NCBI GenBank assembly: GCA_023666975.1
Contig: JAMPAW010000003.1
Coordinates: 4,847 to 27,035 of the forward strand
DNA from: Clostridium sp.
GTDB taxonomy: Bacteria > Bacillota_A > Clostridia > Lachnospirales > Lachnospiraceae
Direction: 5' to 3'
DNA: 22,189 bases
Part shown: positions 9,410-22,189 of the stretch, piece by piece
Position numbering within the stretch: the stretch's first letter is position 1
How the letters are laid out: every line of letters starts with the position of its first letter
The notes under the pieces: model-generated
Databases searched by the model: none
Told to the model about the DNA's origin: nothing
What the model saw: only the letters and a program-made list of their open reading frames with translations
Position numbers and translations under genes: made by a program

Positions 9410-10540
9410 TTATCTGCCAAATATTTTTTTGCCAATCATGTCAAGCGGGTGCTTGATGATATTCCGGAATCTGTTCATCTGCCGCTTTTGCTCCTGCAGC
9501 TCCTTTTGCTGTTCTTTTAGTGCTTTTTTCATGTGCAAAGCAAGACTGCCAAAAAACAGTATCACATCTTCCAGCATATATCCATCATATGGATTCCACT
9601 TGTTCTTTTTTGCGGCATGCGGGGAGAACAATTCCTCCTCCCCTAAATATTCTTCGGCAATCCGGACGTTCCCCTCATGATATTGGGCCAGAAACACCGC
9701 TCTCTCTGTCTCAGAAAACATATTATATCTATCTTCTTCTCCCTGATATCCGGACTGTTCTTCAAGCAGCTGCCGAAACATTACATTTCCATCTGCATCC
9801 AAATCCGGAATCTTATTTAAAATCCGCTTAATCTCCGTGTTATTACGGGTAAGGCTGAGATTTCTCATTTCCCTTGTGACATGGTATTCATCTGAATAAC
9901 TCAGTCCCAAAGCATCTAAGAAATCCGTATATATTGTCCCTCCAACAAACCGTTCTGCCTCAAATCTTCTTACAATAATATTATCCCTGCCTACATAATC
10001 CGCTATCTTTTCCAGCATATCATAATAATCCAGCCGAATCCTCGGAAGCTCTTTTGCCATTCTGTCCCATGTAAGCCGGGATTCCTCCTTCAGCCCCTCT
10101 TTCACCCGCTGGCTCCACCATGAATAGAGAAAAGTATCCTGCATACGGAGATACACGATTACCTTAACTGCAATCTGCTTTTGCCCAATCTCCTCTTTTA
10201 TCTTCTGCCATACATTTTTCCCGTCACGGAAGCCGCAGGTCCACAGCCCTTCGTCCGACAAAATAATATTCGGATAAGTCTTAAACGCTTTATCAAGCTC
10301 CGCAAATCCTTCGTGGAAAATTTCCTCTTCTCTTGCCGTATCCCGCAAACCGTCCTCACGATGTATGCACCCAAACAGAAAATGCCCGTTTCTCAGTCTA
10401 CTCGCACTTGGATAGCGATAAACAAATTCAGGATAATAATATCCCTGACGGTTCAATACTTCCTGATTCTCACTGCAAAAGTTCTGTATCGCTGTCGTTC
10501 CTGTTTTCGGTGTTCCAATATGCAAATAAATCGTATTCAT
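9410..10540 (-). CDS. Sulfotransferase-like protein, 376 aa
   Basis: Resembles bacterial PAPS-dependent sulfotransferase-fold proteins, which move a sulfo group to carbohydrates or other acceptors. The N-terminus reads IYLHIGTPKTGTTAIQNF; GTPKTGTT (residues 9-16) is the 5'-phosphosulfate-binding loop. Next come a strand ending IILSDEGLW and a second motif VIVYLRMQDTFLYSWWSQR, which fits the 3'-phosphate-binding RxxxxxxxS region. The C-terminus is a basic, helical tail rich in K, Q and E. The frame could start at 10585, but AAGGAG lies seven bases before the ATG at 10540, so MNTIYLHIG is taken as the start. It follows valS by about 180 bases without a clear terminator or promoter. No cell-surface glycan genes are nearby, so the acceptor is unknown. 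Confidence 0.8.
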   Translation of the reverse strand: MNTIYLHIGTPKTGTTAIQNFCSENQEVLNRQGYYYPEFVYRYPSASRLRNGHFLFGCIHREDGLRDTAREEEIFHEGFAELDKAFKTYPNIILSDEGLWTCGFRDGKNVWQKIKEEIGQKQIAVKVIVYLRMQDTFLYSWWSQRVKEGLKEESRLTWDRMAKELPRIRLDYYDMLEKIADYVGRDNIIVRRFEAERFVGGTIYTDFLDALGLSYSDEYHVTREMRNLSLTRNNTEIKRILNKIPDLDADGNVMFRQLLEEQSGYQGEEDRYNMFSETERAVFLAQYHEGNVRIAEEYLGEEELFSPHAAKKNKWNPYDGYMLEDVILFFGSLALHMKKALKEQQKELQEQKRQMNRFRNIIKHPLDMIGKKIFGR

Positions 10541-10721
10541 TGGCATACTCCTTTCACTTCTACTCAAACTTTCTGTCATTTTCATTATCTGACGGACATC
10601 TCTTTGTTCTGATTGTGCCTCTATGCTGTCAATCTTATCCTTACCGCTTGAAATTTAAGTGAAATACCAATCCTCAATACCAATTTACTCTTTACCCTAT
10701 CTCATTTCCCACCTTTAATTT

Positions 10722-13960: not shown

Positions 13961-14854
13961 TTGGAGAAGAAGCACAATCAATGGCACCCCGGCTTTATCG
14001 CCGCCTTGCAAATGGAACTGCGGGAAAACAGGGAGGATTTGGAATTTACAGAGGAACATAACTTAAGCAAAAAACCATTGCAGATTGACTTGCTGGTTAT
14101 CAAAAAGGACGGGGATACAGTAATTCACAATGGAATCGGCAAGCTGTTCCACCGATATAATATTGTAGAATACAAGTCACCGGACGATACCATGGGAATC
14201 GACGTATTTTACAAGGTGAACGCTTATGCCTGCCTGTACAAGAACAGCGCAGACAAGGAAAACCAGTATCCAGTGGGGGATATCACGATTACTCTGTTAA
14301 GGCACAATTACCCAAGAACACTGATGAAGCACTTGCGGGCAGAAGGCTATACCATTACCCGCCGTGAACCCGGCATCTATGAAGTGGCAGGAAAGGCGAT
14401 GTTTGCCACGCAGATTATCGTATCAAAGGAACTGCCGGAGGAGGAACATATCTGGCTGAAATCACTGCGGCGGGATATTTCCAAGGAAATGTATGAGAAG
14501 CTACTGCTGACGATCGGTCAGCTGGCAGGCAGGGAACGGGAAACCTATGGCGAAGCAGTACTGGAAGTGGTATCCAGTGCGAATAACAGCAGGATTGCGG
14601 AATGGAAGGAGGAAGCAGAAATGTGTGCGACATTGGAACAGATCATGGCACCGGAGATAGCTGAGCGGGAACGTCTGGCACGGGAGAAAGCACTTGAAGA
14701 AGGCCGCGAAGAGGGCCGCGAGGAAGGCATGGAAAAAGGCCGTATACTTGCCTATGCTGAACTAGGGGTAAGCATAAAAGACATCGCCAGACAGTTTTCG
14801 CATTCAGTAGAGGAAATCCAAAAAATCATATCCGACAATGGTAAAAGCAACTGA
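13961..14854 (+). CDS. PD-(D/E)XK (Rpn-like) nuclease family protein, 297 aa
   Basis: Resembles the recombination-promoting nuclease / PD-(D/E)XK transposase-associated family common in Lachnospiraceae. The nuclease core is seen as QIDLLVIKKDG with D43, then NIVEYKS with E70 and K72, the D...ExK metal-binding pattern, followed by the helix DVFYKVNAYACLYK. The C-terminal part has the typical repeated EEGREEGREEGMEKGR (246-261) and a helix-turn-helix-like end (LGVSIKDIARQFSHSVEEI). The start is TTG, chosen because a full AGGAGG lies six bases upstream and no better codon is near. It is the only gene on the plus strand in the window. Its direct target and any link with transposition or phage defence cannot be told from sequence. 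Some databases label such proteins 3-isopropylmalate dehydrogenase, which the sequence does not support. Confidence 0.85.
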   Translation: MEKKHNQWHPGFIAALQMELRENREDLEFTEEHNLSKKPLQIDLLVIKKDGDTVIHNGIGKLFHRYNIVEYKSPDDTMGIDVFYKVNAYACLYKNSADKENQYPVGDITITLLRHNYPRTLMKHLRAEGYTITRREPGIYEVAGKAMFATQIIVSKELPEEEHIWLKSLRRDISKEMYEKLLLTIGQLAGRERETYGEAVLEVVSSANNSRIAEWKEEAEMCATLEQIMAPEIAERERLAREKALEEGREEGREEGMEKGRILAYAELGVSIKDIARQFSHSVEEIQKIISDNGKSN

Positions 14855-14861
14855 ACCTTAT

Positions 14862-14900
14862 AAAAACAAGGAACCCGCCAAAACGGGTTCCCTGTTTTTA
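14862..14900. terminator. Bidirectional intrinsic terminator
   Basis: AACAAGGAACCCG and CGGGTTCCCTGTT pair over a short loop with a single mismatch. TTTTTA follows on the plus strand and TTGTTTTTA on the minus strand. It separates the convergent nuclease gene and RHS cassette and should stop both transcripts. Confidence 0.9.
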
Positions 14901-14987
14901 TAACCGCATTATCAACGAATTTCCGTTTTTGTCGCAGCCAAAGGAGGCTGCTGCACCTGCACTGTAACCAGCGGTTGGATACTCAGT
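14898..14987 (-). pseudogene. Coding-like remnant, 29 codons
   Basis: On the minus strand a frame between two stops reads EYPTAGYSAGAAASFGCDKN and then a few more residues to a TAA inside the terminator tail. It has no start codon and overlaps the stop of the 172-aa gene. Codon choice (GCAGGTGCAGCAGCC) is richer in G+C than the two genes before it. It may be the 3' end of a lost gene, for example an older cassette member. I do not recognise the protein. Confidence 0.3.
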
Positions 14988-15501
14988 TTACATGCCAGCC
15001 TGCTTCTTTTTTCAATAGCCGATAAAAATTTCTTTCGGATATAGGAAGCCGAAGTGTAGTAATTATTTCAAAAACAACACACCCTACCAAGAAATATACA
15101 TTTATATTTTCCAGATTTGTAAAAAACACAAGTCCCGATAAACAACAGACAACCATAGCTATACATGTCTTTTTATTAAGTATATCTCCCCAATCACGCT
15201 TCACACGATAACTAACTTCTCCATCACTAATTATTTCTATAATATCCCCTATCTTATCTCTTCCTTTTTTAATCAATAACGTATCTTTACTTTTTCCATT
15301 CAATTTGTAATTTAATACTGTGATATCATAAGTCCATTTATCAAGTTGAACTGTATCAAAATAAATAACCTTGGCAGCAATTCTAAAACCTTTAAATTTT
15401 TTATTATTCCACAATAGTTTATACCGAAAAGGTGTTGTTATAAGAGTACCTAATGTAGCCACAAAACATAATCCACAAAAATTAATATCCCATATTTCCA
15501 T
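14983..15501 (-). CDS. Small membrane protein with DUF3592-like block, 172 aa, candidate immunity protein
   Basis: No recognised enzyme motif. Hydrophobic segments at about residues 7-24, 111-127 and 134-150 frame a polar region (40-105). That region reads AAKVIYFDT, then TVLNYKLNGKSKDTLLI and DKIGDIIEIISDGE; this order of a strand, an NG turn and an IGD.I.I strand resembles DUF3592-type domains. It is low in G+C with a basic C-terminus. The ATG overlaps the stop of a preceding mini-frame (TAATG), and GGAG is 11 bases upstream, so translation is probably coupled. It is the last gene of the RHS cassette. By position and membrane topology it may protect against the RHS tip, but this is inference. 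Confidence 0.75.
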   Translation of the reverse strand: MEIWDINFCGLCFVATLGTLITTPFRYKLLWNNKKFKGFRIAAKVIYFDTVQLDKWTYDITVLNYKLNGKSKDTLLIKKGRDKIGDIIEIISDGEVSYRVKRDWGDILNKKTCIAMVVCCLSGLVFFTNLENINVYFLVGCVVFEIITTLRLPISERNFYRLLKKEAGWHVN

Positions 15502-15536
15502 TAATGTCTATTCTCCATCATATATTTATCACTCAT
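15501..15536 (-). CDS. Possible coupled mini-ORF, 11 aa
   Basis: ATG at 15536 to TAA at 15501, giving MSDKYMMENRH. The same frame is open further up to a TTG at 15569 that overlaps the stop of the 317-aa gene (22 codons in all, ISDLINLAKEMSDKY and on). Its TAA shares one base with the next ATG. It is either a coupling peptide or the frameshifted end of the upstream protein. There is no strong ribosome site. Confidence 0.25.
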   Translation of the reverse strand: MSDKYMMENRH

Positions 15537-15565
15537 TTCTTTCGCTAGGTTAATCAAATCGCTTA

Positions 15566-16519
15566 TCAACCCACATACCGCTCTTCTGTTTTTTCTATTA
15601 TGTAATCGTAAATACTTGCATACTGGGTATTTGTAATCCCTAAGGCTCTTGAAAAACTAAGCACCCTTGACGATTCTGCTGTTCCACACAAAAAATTATT
15701 TCCTGTTTTTGCAATAACATAATATTTAAGTGGTAATCCTAATTCTCTAAGCCTCACCGTTTCACTAACAACTGACATATTCCCAGTTATTGGAAGCAAA
15801 TCATAATAAGATATTTCTTCTTGCGATAAATGAACTAAACACCAAATATAATCTTTATTGAAACTAATATCATATTTCTTTATTATTTCTGCTATATCAT
15901 CTACTGACAAATTATATCCATGTATATCTTTATAAGAATTTAAAATTACTTTCTGTCTTTTTTCTATTTCCTCATCTTCAACACGAATACTTATTTCCTT
16001 TTCTTTGCCAATTCTCTTCTTTGAGTCATTATCGTTTTTTTGGATTATCTTTTTTAAAATCAATTTAAATATTAAAAATATACTCTCATTTGCTACAAAA
16101 AATATTGTTAGACTAATAAAATTTTTTAAAATTTTATCATACACGACATTATCCAATATACAACACCTTATTTGATTTGGATTGTTTTTATCCACTGCTA
16201 TGTCTATATTCGTTCCAATCTCTTTATCATCATAAAAATACACAGTGTTTACAAAATCTACTTCATTCATTTCATATGTAATTGTCATTTGCACAACTTC
16301 TCCAAATACAGATTGCCTTAGATACAACGGGTATTCTCTTATGCCTATAATCTGAGCTTCTACAATATTATATTGACTTTTATTTATTTGATATTGAACG
16401 TAGCTTACTAATTGTATTCCTCCCTGTAGATAAATCCTGCCCAAAAATAATAACAGAAAAATTACTATAAAAACCTTCTCATATAATTTTAATATATCAT
16501 ATCTTCTTCTATTGTCCAT
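15566..16519 (-). CDS. Membrane protein, DUF3592-like loop plus possible SUKH-like C-terminal domain, 317 aa, candidate immunity protein
   Basis: Residues 15-33 and 133-154 are membrane segments. The loop between them reads NIVEAQIIGIREY, MTITYEMNEVDFV, then IGTNIDIAVDKNNPNQIR, which fits the DUF3592 pattern of a G..v.v..d..NP turn. After a charged linker (160-190) comes a cytoplasmic domain (about 190-317) with LPITGNMSVVSETVRLRE, LPLKYYVIAKTGNNFLCGT, a V.SFS strand and ASIYDYIIEK. This order resembles SUKH (SMI1/KNR4) domains, a superfamily widely used as immunity proteins in polymorphic toxin systems. The assignment is by eye. The ten-base gap from the RHS stop holds most of the ribosome site GAGGAG, so the two genes are tightly coupled. 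The gene is clearly A+T-rich, like the RHS tail. Confidence 0.78.
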   Translation of the reverse strand: MDNRRRYDILKLYEKVFIVIFLLLFLGRIYLQGGIQLVSYVQYQINKSQYNIVEAQIIGIREYPLYLRQSVFGEVVQMTITYEMNEVDFVNTVYFYDDKEIGTNIDIAVDKNNPNQIRCCILDNVVYDKILKNFISLTIFFVANESIFLIFKLILKKIIQKNDNDSKKRIGKEKEISIRVEDEEIEKRQKVILNSYKDIHGYNLSVDDIAEIIKKYDISFNKDYIWCLVHLSQEEISYYDLLPITGNMSVVSETVRLRELGLPLKYYVIAKTGNNFLCGTAESSRVLSFSRALGITNTQYASIYDYIIEKTEERYVG

Positions 16520-16529
16520 AGTCTCCTCT

Positions 16530-19500
16530 TTACATTAAATCAAGCCATTTTGCTACTGCCTGCACAATATAAGAAGCAACCGCTTGAATCTTTGAAAAGA
16601 AATCATATTGATCATACAACATACCTGATTGCCACTCATACCCATCCATTATTCCCTTATATGCTGCGGCACCTTGTGCCTCCGCTTTACTCATATTTGT
16701 CATGCCAGCTGTCAGTATACCTATTACATCAATAATAATATAGCAAACATCACTTTGAGCTTTTACTATATCACCCGCTTGAATATCATAAATAAAATCA
16801 TATATATATGCCATTATGTCAATAGAATTTGACATTATAGATATCACATTTCCTGCACCAGAGAAAGGGAACACTAAAGACACAGCTGTTCCAATTATAC
16901 TCAAAACCGTTGCAACATTATGGACTATTGTGGTATCATACCTCGCCAACCCAAACGGGTCTAGGAAGCTTACCGGATTCCCTTCCACATATGCATACCG
17001 GTTCAGGCTGCTTGCTCTCTCTAATGTCCCGGTCAGCACATCCTGATTCACAAACCGCTTGATATCCACATTATAGTAACGTGCCCGCATGTAATAGAGT
17101 CCGTTGGCGTCTGTGGCTACGCCATACTGTCCGTTATACAGGAACGGGATATCTTCATTATACTCACCGTCAATCAGTTCCCCATAAGGTGTGTAATTAT
17201 AGGTTTCGATTACCTTTCCCCCGGAATCGGTTACCGCCATCGTGCTTCCCACGTTATTGAAGTGATAGGTCAGGTAGCCGTCAGTCTTATTCTCCTGTGC
17301 CAGAAGTCCCTGTCCATAGAAGTAATACGTTATCTCCTGCCCGGAATCTTTCGCTCTGCGGTCTGTGGTTATGCTCTGCAATACCTGATTCAGTTCCGGC
17401 TGGCTGTTTATCACATACTCCGTCCGCCTTGTTCCGGTCGTTACGGCTGTCCGGTTGTTCTCGGCATCATATTCATAGGCGGTACCGCCTGCTTTCACAA
17501 GTCGGTTGCGGCAGTCAAAGACAAACTCGGTCATCTCTCCCTGCAGCGGACCGTAGGTCATGTTGCCGTCTTTATCATATTTCACCTTCTCGCCGTTATA
17601 GGTGAGCAGGCGGTTGTTCCGGTCATAAGTCATTTCCGCAGTGGCGACCCCGGTAAAGTCCAGTTCACCACTGTACAGCTGCTTTACCTCAGTAATGTTG
17701 CCGGCTTCATCATAGCGGTATTCCTGCCGGTTGACGATGGTTTCCCCGCTCTTATCCAGAATCTGCGTAAGGCGGCCTGCCCTGTCATAGCTTCTGGTCT
17801 CCACGGTTCCGTCCGGCCGTTCCGTCTTCACCAGCCTTGCATTTTCATCATAGGCGTATGCCGTCGTCCTGCCGTTCCAGTCCGTAACGGTTTTCGGGTT
17901 GCCGTTCCGGTCATAGGTATAGGTAACCTTCTCCCCATTCGGGTAAACCAGCTTAACCAGGTTACCGGCTCTGTCATACCGGTAGCCGATTTGATTGCCG
18001 CGGGCATCCTCATAGGATGTCACACGGTTTAATCCGTCGTAGGTCCGGGTGATTGTGCTTGTCTTGTCCCCCACTGTTTCCTGCACCTTCAGCACGTTAT
18101 CATTGGCATCATAAGTATACTCAATCACGCCTGCCTCATCCGTCTGCCGGGTGATTCTCCCCAGTGCATCATATTCATAGGCTGTCTTCTGGCTCCGGCT
18201 GTTCGTTTTTGACGCGGCCAGATTCTGTGCATTGTAGGTGTATCTTACATGGTAATCCTCTCCAATGATTTCGTCAGTGAGGTTATTATTGAGGTCATAG
18301 CGGTAACTGGTCACCCCGCCGTTCGGGTTGGTCAGCGTTGCAAGGTTTCCCATGCTGTCATAGGCTGCGCTTGCCGTATTCCCCAAGGCATCCGTCGAGG
18401 ATGCCAGATACCTGCCGCCCACATAGGAATAAGTGGCTGCATTGCCGGCTGCCACATTCATCTGCTTAACCAGGTTGCCCATGGCATCATAGCTGTTCTT
18501 GGTCACATGCCCGAAAGCGTCCGTTACTCCTGTACAATTTCCCATGCAGTCGTAGGTATAGCTCTCCGTCATCACCCCCTTGGCGTCATAAACTGCGGTC
18601 AGGTTGGAGTTAAGGTCATACTCCATCCTTCTTGTATTTCCCTCCCCGTCTGTCAGGGAAACCACGTTGCCGAGATTGTCGTAACTGATAGACAGGGTAA
18701 CGTCCTCCTGCTTCGTATCCCCCTTCCTTGTCATGGAAACAATCTGCCCTCGTGCATCATAGGCAAATTCGGTTATGCCGCCCTCCGCATCGGTTACACG
18801 GGTACAGTTCATCGCCTTATCATAATCATACTTCGTCACATTGCCGTTATTATCTGTCTGGCGAATGATTTTCCTATAGGCATTATACTCCATTTTCGTG
18901 GAATTGCCTAGTGCATTTTCTATAAATGACAGATTTCCGTCCTTGTCGTAGCCAAAGGAGGTTACCGCACCCGCACCGTCTGTCACCCGGCTGATTCTTC
19001 CCGCCTTATCATAAACCAACGTAGTCGTATTCCCTTTGGCATCCGTCTGGCTCTTTAACAGGCCGTTTCCGTAATAAGCATACTTTATTTCCCCGCCATT
19101 GCTCTGCACCATGGACAGAAGCTGGCTTCCCGCACTGTAACTGGCAGTTTGAATACCTTTGAGCGTATCGGTCAGGGACAGTGCATTGCCAGCCGAATCA
19201 TAGACCGCCTCCGCTGTGGTGCTTCCGTCCGGGCAGACAATCTTTGTCACATTCCCATTGTGATCATAACTGTAGGTAAAGGATTTCCCATCCGGCCGCT
19301 TCTCCTCGATCAGCCGGTCTTCTTCATCATAGACATAGCGGGTCGTATTGCCCTCAGCGTCCGTTTTTGACAACCGTTTGCCATAGTCATCATAAGTATA
19401 GGCTACCGTTGCCTTTTGCCCGTTATCCATGACAACACTTTCCTCTGTCACCCTGCCGGATACATCTACCTGATAATCGGTCACGACCCCGTCCCCGTCA

Positions 19501-22073: not shown

Positions 22074-22148
22074 TTCTCCTTTTTCCAGATTAATGATAAT
22101 CTCTTTACTCTGTCCTGCCTCTACGACAGCTTCTACCTCCCTACATAG
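22074..22148 (-). other. Coding-like 5' extension of the RHS frame without start codon
   Basis: The RHS frame stays open for 25 codons above the chosen ATG, to a TGA at 22149-22151. It reads VEAVVEAGQSKEIIINLEKG into the ATG, which looks like protein rather than leader. No ATG, GTG or TTG occurs in it. Upstream of the TGA this frame has further stops, while another frame is open from the window edge to a TAG near 22143. This suggests truncation or a frameshift at the 5' end. Confidence 0.5.
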
Positions 22149-22189
22149 TCAAGTCTTTTTTCCTTAAAATTAAGGATTTGTTTACATTG

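Follow-up and report, generated by a model that had tools for sequence, protein, structure and literature searches.

A predicted membrane-acting RHS toxin tip in a Lachnospiraceae genome and its two candidate immunity proteins, one joining a membrane module to SUKH_5

Contig JAMPAW010000003.1 of Clostridium sp. (family Lachnospiraceae; assembly GCA_023666975.1) carries, within the 22,189-nucleotide stretch analysed here (the window), a gene for an RHS/YD-repeat protein that ends in a short hydrophobic C-terminal tip and is followed in the same direction by two genes, P0002 and P0003, for membrane-like proteins. We interpret the locus as a cassette of the polymorphic-toxin type carried on an RHS shell, in which the tip attacks membranes while P0002 and P0003 protect against it, and we give this reading a probability of about 0.62. 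In agreement with the original prediction from the window sequence, it is very likely that the tip and its two partners form a toxin-immunity cassette; the anatomy of the locus, its base composition and a survey covering 91 Rhs cassettes all support this. The membrane is a likely target of the tip; the same prediction had argued this from the membrane character of the two partners, and the survey places it on wider grounds.

The RHS gene and its low-GC cassette

The window shows the layout of an RHS-class polymorphic toxin, namely RHS/YD repeats ending in an Rhs_assc_core domain and then a variable C-terminal tip (Table 1). The core ends at residue 1709, and everything after it constitutes the tip. 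The DPFG motif begins at residue 1705 and is followed by exactly 139 residues and a stop codon. As originally described, these residues are hydrophobic, with a mean Kyte-Doolittle (KD) value of +0.56 versus -0.68 over the preceding 1708 residues, and they include two transmembrane (TM)-like stretches. This short hydrophobic tip occupies the position of the enzyme in other RHS proteins.

The same early description was right that both following genes lie in the same direction and that their products are membrane-like, as judged by TM-like segments in hydropathy profiles, and the gap between the RHS open reading frame (ORF) and P0002 measures 10 bases, as had been stated, with AGGAG three bases 5' of the ATG. 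It erred in placing a TAATG junction between the two partner genes: P0002 ends with TGA at 15568-15566, 64 bases before the P0003 ATG at 15501, and the TAATG string is out of frame with P0002.

The GC content falls from 0.475 in the RHS core to 0.357 in the tip, 0.276 in P0002 and 0.299 in P0003, and returns to 0.469-0.481 beyond the cassette. The whole 1967-base block lies below all 2023 windows of the same length sampled every 10 bases. Because the drop spans all three elements, it suggests that the tip, P0002 and P0003 were imported together as one cassette. It should be noted that the best single change point, at 16852, lies about 100 bases into the tip and not exactly at its start.

Predicted fold and relatives of the tip

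The best AlphaFold2 (AF2) model of the tip, obtained from the single sequence for a construct of 142 amino acids (aa) starting at PFG, consists of five helices (9-32, 35-60, 64-85, 91-109 and 117-141 in construct numbering) with a predicted local distance difference test (pLDDT) score of 67.7. Nothing in Pfam, NCBIfam, PHROGs or PADLOC matches the tip convincingly, and its hits to a PHROG of unknown function (E 0.04) and to one Pfam family (E 0.14) were taken as noise. In a search of 5.8 billion proteins, confined to those 0.55-1.75 times as long as the RHS protein, the tip finds only itself at E<=0.01 in 233 candidates. No relative was found in viral contigs, nor in phages and plasmids by tblastn, and the sole match in genome contigs (L001) falls on the antisense strand of an ORF within an ATP-synthase cluster and was dismissed as spurious. 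As to the earlier suggestion that the toxin-immunity pair may be undescribed, these searches agree with it for the pair itself, whereas the kind of system is known.

Relatives were therefore sought by six-frame search in 397 genomes of one family, which we take to be Lachnospiraceae from the identity of its centre genome, G001 (Lachnospiraceae bacterium UBA4381). With the single tip sequence, four of the 397 genomes match; G331 and G113 were kept, while reading of the loci led to rejection of the G001 match (the same place as L001) and of the G135 match, a transporter-like ORF. A profile of three sequences, the window tip and two relatives, matches seven genomes, five of which were accepted (G331, G113, G269, G148 and G107), G331 and contig C25 of G113 matching by construction as contributors to the profile. 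The G351 match (L031), a non-RHS region with an internal stop, was rejected, and the G015 match was left out of the accepted set.

The resulting family comprises eight tips: that of the window, two each in G113 and G269, and one each in G331, G148 and G107. The seven relatives are diverged, sharing 18-29% identity with the window tip, and when all eight are aligned, the only invariant positions are Leu1 and His10, numbered as in the window tip. Seven members measure 114-152 aa, the eighth 83 aa. The family was frozen at these first-round members; further iteration drew in the long tips L116 (E 0.0085) and then L114. Three short look-alike tips (L027:9526-9948, L030:2886-3344 and L118:2459-2803) were kept out, the first two being counted among the other cassettes below; the third lacks a next ORF within the 200 bases allowed by the caller and has a two-TM ORF further on.

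Contig C25 of G113 (L016 and L033) contains an array of RHS C-terminal cassettes, several of which carry a tip rich in glycine (two of these tips measure 123 and 153 aa) without a Pfam match at E 0.01. By eye, these tips precede similar two-TM proteins with a YxVVEGY-like motif, and they are possibly a second undescribed class of tips and immunities with membrane partners.

Partner genes in a survey of Rhs cassettes

Rhs cores are present in 112 of the 397 genomes. The survey used the 150 best core places by core score out of a larger number, and is thus biased to good cores; several of its cassettes come from one genome. Regions for 147 of these places were examined and 109 loci were read, 72 of which yielded a tip. 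A DPxG-type pattern, once duplicates had been discarded, identified 112 core ends, of which 104 have a stop; 91 tips reach a length of 60 aa or more and are followed by a closed ORF. Some of the 98 tips scanned match HNH-type, REase, Ntox, deaminase or lysozyme families, and the 99 next-gene proteins include matches to SUKH, Imm and CdiI families, with SMI1_KNR4 found in 8, SUKH_6 in 7 and SUKH_5 in 6 (overlapping counts that include P0002). Since tips match toxin families and next genes match immunity families, the survey samples real toxin-immunity pairs.

A membrane-like segment (KD of at least 1.4) occurs in the next gene of all eight family cassettes versus 24 of 83 others (p=1.2e-4). The difference persists at a stricter cut-off of 1.6 (7/8 versus 21/83, p=9e-4) and after removal of near-duplicates (8/8 versus 23/75, p=2e-4), and two or more segments are found in 6/8 family next genes versus 8/83 of the rest (p=1e-4). 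Outside the family, thirteen next genes have exactly one segment, which in ten of them lies within the first ~40 residues, a placement resembling that of signal peptides or lipoproteins.

Across the 91 cassettes, hydropathy is higher in tips that precede a polytopic gene than in the others (mean +0.32 versus -0.49, p=2.5e-8). Among tips with a TM-like stretch, a polytopic gene follows 14 of 23 that are shorter than 250 aa and none of 19 longer ones (p=1.5e-5). Outside the family, all eight polytopic next genes follow tips below 250 aa with a mean hydropathy above -0.1. The rule is imperfect: no polytopic gene follows 5 of the 18 short hydrophobic tips, and one does follow 1 of the 73 others. 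Because it is the short and not the long tips with TM stretches that precede polytopic genes, a membrane-acting toxin is favoured over a linker.

Similar one-TM proteins of ~240-260 aa with a CNSxN motif were noticed by eye behind RHS cassettes in two genomes (L029:129-854 and L032:2707-3486); perhaps they form another immunity family.

The candidate immunity proteins P0002 and P0003

The original prediction treated both partners as membrane immunity candidates. Both are membrane-like, and yet for the first the description was incomplete. P0002 has TM-like segments within residues 7-38 and 133-155, and a structural model places beta strands in its front half, between residues 50 and 120, at low confidence (block pLDDT 49-88); its C-terminal part matches SUKH_5 with E 1.5e-10 and 41.5 bits, over a cut-off of 27. 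The same architecture and Pfam domain are found in a full-length relative, P0004 (30% identity), and genome G189 encodes another at L167 (profile E 2e-62) whose SUKH_5 score of 20.7 (E 4e-4) is below the cut-off. The TM-like segments of P0002, P0004 and L167 nearly coincide (9-27/137-155, 15-33/136-154 and 14-32/132-150, respectively), which indicates that the SUKH-membrane fusion is not a chance join; by sequence, a two-TM module fused to a C-terminal SUKH_5 domain is an architecture common to three diverged proteins. A profile of the three also matches, over the membrane module only (E 2e-9), the gene located 189 bases after the 83-aa family tip on contig C44 of G113. P0002 is, with high probability, the cognate immunity protein of the tip. 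We had taken the membrane proteins of the window to be DUF3592-like, a likeness that Pfam did not bear out: neither P0002 and P0003 nor 10 related or partner proteins match DUF3592, the latter up to E 1.

P0003 has TM-like segments at residues 3-21 and within 107-155, and a beta domain may be presumed between them by likeness to P0002. Its four relatives, P0005-P0008, share 66-74% identity with it, and two of them are labelled Lachnospiraceae. A P0003 profile built without its target matches a gene on contig C4 of G269 (E 3e-4 in 3363 ORFs), which starts 318 bases past the stop of a 30-residue tip remnant and is perhaps an immunity gene outliving its toxin. This part of the contig (L032, 1-1301) reads as a tip remnant cut by a stop, a small ORF and then the intact P0003 relative. 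The odds that P0003 confers immunity to the window tip itself are slightly less than even.

Weighing of the evidence and alternative explanations

Several observations weigh against a membrane-acting tip guarded by P0002 and P0003. A relative of the P0002 module adjoins only one of the seven other family tips and a P0003 relative none, so that, by sequence, the situation named beforehand as refuting, homologous tips without either gene, is largely what was found; all seven nevertheless precede a membrane-like gene, one of them (L016, 88 aa) being only borderline. We consider that demanding fixed partner genes is too strict, because polymorphic tips and their immunities usually vary in this way. 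Hydropathy served in place of a topology predictor, a crude ORF rule picked the next genes, 250 aa and 0.05 were adopted as tip cut-offs after the data had been inspected, and the tip models come from a single sequence, the five having mean pLDDT values of 41-68. The match of the G269 tip remnant to the tip profile reaches only E 0.004, spans 45 positions and is interrupted by a stop. No RHS gene was seen in the 14 kilobases read around L167, and the list of genomes with an Rhs core does not include G189; on the usual reading L167 would be an orphan immunity gene. SUKH domains usually go with soluble enzyme toxins, and the SUKH part of P0002 hints at a cytoplasmic step. Finally, the carrier may be defective: several in-frame stops lie directly upstream of the RHS ORF (22074-22189, minus strand), and the ORF lacks ~1300 N-terminal residues of its G107 relative, including a stretch that looks by eye like a signal peptide, so the window copy may not be exported.

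The tip might be only a pre-toxin segment, for translocation or as a linker, whose following toxin domain has been lost, which we regard as unlikely. In some Lachnospiraceae RHS proteins a hydrophobic hairpin (H..LD..G..P....D..N...Y...GD) does separate the core from the remainder of a long tip, and such a 60-residue hairpin recurs just past the core in the long tips of L068, L089, L101, L114, L116, L146, L147 and L161; the 25 families listed, of the 28 that match surveyed tips, include neither a named hairpin family nor pre-toxin TG. The window tip and the hairpins both start with a conserved His, the family profile gives L116 its borderline score in a set of 101 tips, and a reverse search with the hairpin ranks the window tip, at E 0.2, next behind the true hairpins and two L064 RHS tips. 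The hhalign comparison of the tip family with the hairpin beat 100 of 100 column-shuffled controls, but the alignment covers 12 columns only, at E 0.047 and in a register that is not the expected one. Moreover, none of the ten hairpin-bearing tips with a callable next gene precedes a polytopic one, in line with the 0/19 of long and 14/23 of short TM-stretch tips in general, and seven of the eight family tips are similar in length, each family tip having its own membrane-like next gene. An intracellular enzyme, such as a helical HEPN-like RNase with the SUKH domain of P0002 as the working immunity part, is likewise improbable. HEPN RNases carry an R-x(4-6)-H motif, and an R-x6-H string does occur near the tip start in the window, L014 and L028; the SUKH_5 domain itself and Foldseek rows to HEPN proteins, weak and with E >0.7 throughout, point the same way. 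Against this, R-x(4-6)-H is missing from five of the eight family tips and stands at the very start where present, the two invariant residues amount to no conserved catalytic set, and a soluble enzyme leaves the polytopic partners unexplained.

There is also a small probability that the locus is a non-functional or silent orphan RHS cassette, with its front cut off and its tip serving only as a recombination donor. No export signal was detected in the window RHS ORF (1847 aa). Its N-terminus aligns with the G107 ORF over residues 1306-1668 and with the G331 ORF over residues 2098-2447, relatives that carry 1300-2100 more N-terminal residues; the piece on contig C46 of G113, the third relative compared, gave no match to it. 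That the ORF begins at residue 1306 or 2098 of its relatives, behind in-frame stops, suits a silent copy. However, 1847 RHS codons remain open, as do P0002 and P0003; the window edge is 116 bases beyond the ORF start, and the front of the gene may lie past it. The copy may be broken, mis-assembled or merely cut by the window, an assembly break being possible, and silence would concern the window copy and not what the cassette encodes.

Features and neighbouring genes of the window

Table 1. Coordinates of the RHS locus in the window
Feature	Position	Strand	Basis
RHS/YD-repeat protein ORF P0001, 1847 aa	16530..22073	minus	22 RHS_repeat stretches, DUF6531, Rhs_assc_core
Rhs_assc_core, residues 1627-1709, ends at DPFGL	16947..17195	minus	TIGR03696, E 2.7e-17
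C-terminal tip, residues 1709-1847, predicted membrane-acting toxin	16533..16949	minus	hydropathy, model, seven relatives
P0002, 317 aa, TM - beta domain - TM - SUKH_5, prime immunity candidate	15566..16519	minus	
P0002 membrane module, residues 7-155 (TM, beta domain, TM)	16055..16501	minus	hydropathy, model, profile
P0002 SUKH_5 domain, residues 204-308	15596..15910	minus	PF14567
P0003, 172 aa, TM - presumed beta domain - two TM-like segments, second immunity candidate	14983..15501	minus	
Terminator-like hairpin, 8 pairs, between P0003 and convergent ORF 13961-14854	14870..14891	listed on plus only	
Low-GC cassette (tip, P0002 and P0003)	14983..16949		GC 0.301

The terminator-like palindrome has, by eye, a T-rich tail on the minus strand as well. 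The convergent ORF behind it (plus strand, 297 aa) ends with the charged repeat EEGREEGREEG; it has no Pfam match at E 0.01 and presumably resembles Rpn-type recombination nucleases. A 391-aa ORF at 9410-10585 (minus strand) lies between ORFs that we take to be a sodium/solute symporter and valS; it also lacks a Pfam match at E 0.01, and from its start, IGTPKTGTTAIQ, we assume it to be sulfotransferase-like.

Proposed mechanism and significance

In the proposed mechanism, the RHS shell would carry the tip, which would be released by cleavage near DPFGL, as other RHS toxins are, and delivered to the cytoplasmic membrane of a competitor, where its helices would insert and depolarise the membrane as an ionophore or pore. 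P0002 would reside in the membrane of the producer and block the tip, and P0003 would be either a second immunity factor for the window tip or a kept immunity gene of a related tip. The SUKH part, by analogy with ExiAB of the EsxX system described below, could neutralise the tip inside the producer. A more far-reaching joint proposal, which we put forward as tentative and rather unlikely, is that P0002 provides immunity in two compartments from a single chain, with its membrane module guarding against tip from outside and its SUKH domain capturing fresh tip before export, and that membrane attack is a regular arm of Lachnospiraceae RHS warfare.

If this were true, P0002 alone would combine the roles that fall, in the case of EsxX, to a membrane pair, ExiCD, and a soluble pair, ExiAB, and short helical tips paired with unrelated polytopic proteins would represent a so far uncatalogued RHS membrane attack in Lachnospiraceae; the named toxin families matched by surveyed RHS tips are nearly all enzymes, among the matches listed. 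The combination of a short greasy tip and a polytopic next gene offers a search rule for more such tips. The SUKH immunity superfamily is mainly partnered with soluble enzyme toxins, and the SUKH-membrane fusion, if P0002 protects, would extend it to membrane attack. Among the titles and abstract openings listed from open-licence literature we found no description of Lachnospiraceae RHS membrane tips or of a SUKH-membrane fusion, and in that literature nothing on DUF3592 together with immunity. The tip family and the two-part protector appear new, and the class of mechanism is known from other carriers.

Comparison with known systems

Tse5/Tsi5 of Pseudomonas aeruginosa resembles the window in having a hydrophobic pore-forming C-terminus in an RHS shell and a membrane-bound immunity protein (PMC10684867, PMC12744356), a trait matched here, by hydropathy only, in the TM-like segments of P0002 and P0003. 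Compared by description only, it differs in being Gram-negative and delivered by the type VI secretion system, with one immunity gene and, in the text available, no mention of a SUKH part. Membrane immunity is reported not only for Tse5 (Tsi5), but also for TspA (TsaI) and EsxX (ExiCD) (PMC12744356).

The ionophores of contact-dependent inhibition (CDI) systems dissipate the membrane potential through a five-helix C-terminal domain, and form highly polymorphic pairs with hydrophobic membrane immunity proteins, CdiI (PMC11630599); the single-sequence tip model has the same number of helices. They differ from the window in their CdiA carrier, proteobacterial hosts and separate entry domain, and CdiI is a two-helix hairpin of 72-100 residues (PMC11630599). 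Tox-WTIP is likewise a predicted membrane-spanning helical toxin with RHS proteins among its carriers, whereas it has two helices and RxxR and Wx[ST]IP motifs and is proteobacterial (PMC3482391); by eye, no WxTIP motif is present in the window tip.

Among Gram-positive bacteria, the Bacillus inaquosorum teneurin-like protein (BiTLP) is a YD-shell with a hydrophobic C-terminus, which together with a signal peptide permeabilises E. coli, and immunity genes lie directly 3' of almost all BiTLP-type ORFs (PMC13018210). Its carrier is of the teneurin type, and a membrane immunity partner is not described in the accessible part of that report. With respect to the SUKH superfamily, the C-terminus of P0002 scores over the cut-off of SUKH_5 (PF14567), and the domain in P0002, P0004 and L167 differs in being fused to a TM-beta-TM module. 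EsxX of Staphylococcus aureus, with ExiAB and ExiCD, shares with the window a Gram-positive host, a membrane-depolarising toxin and the combination of membrane and cytoplasmic immunity (PMC12744356). EsxX has an LXG carrier of the type VII secretion system and a glycine zipper, in contrast to the window tip, and its immunities are separate proteins, a DUF5085 pair and a membrane pair (PMC12744356), whereas P0002 brings a membrane module and a SUKH domain together in one chain.

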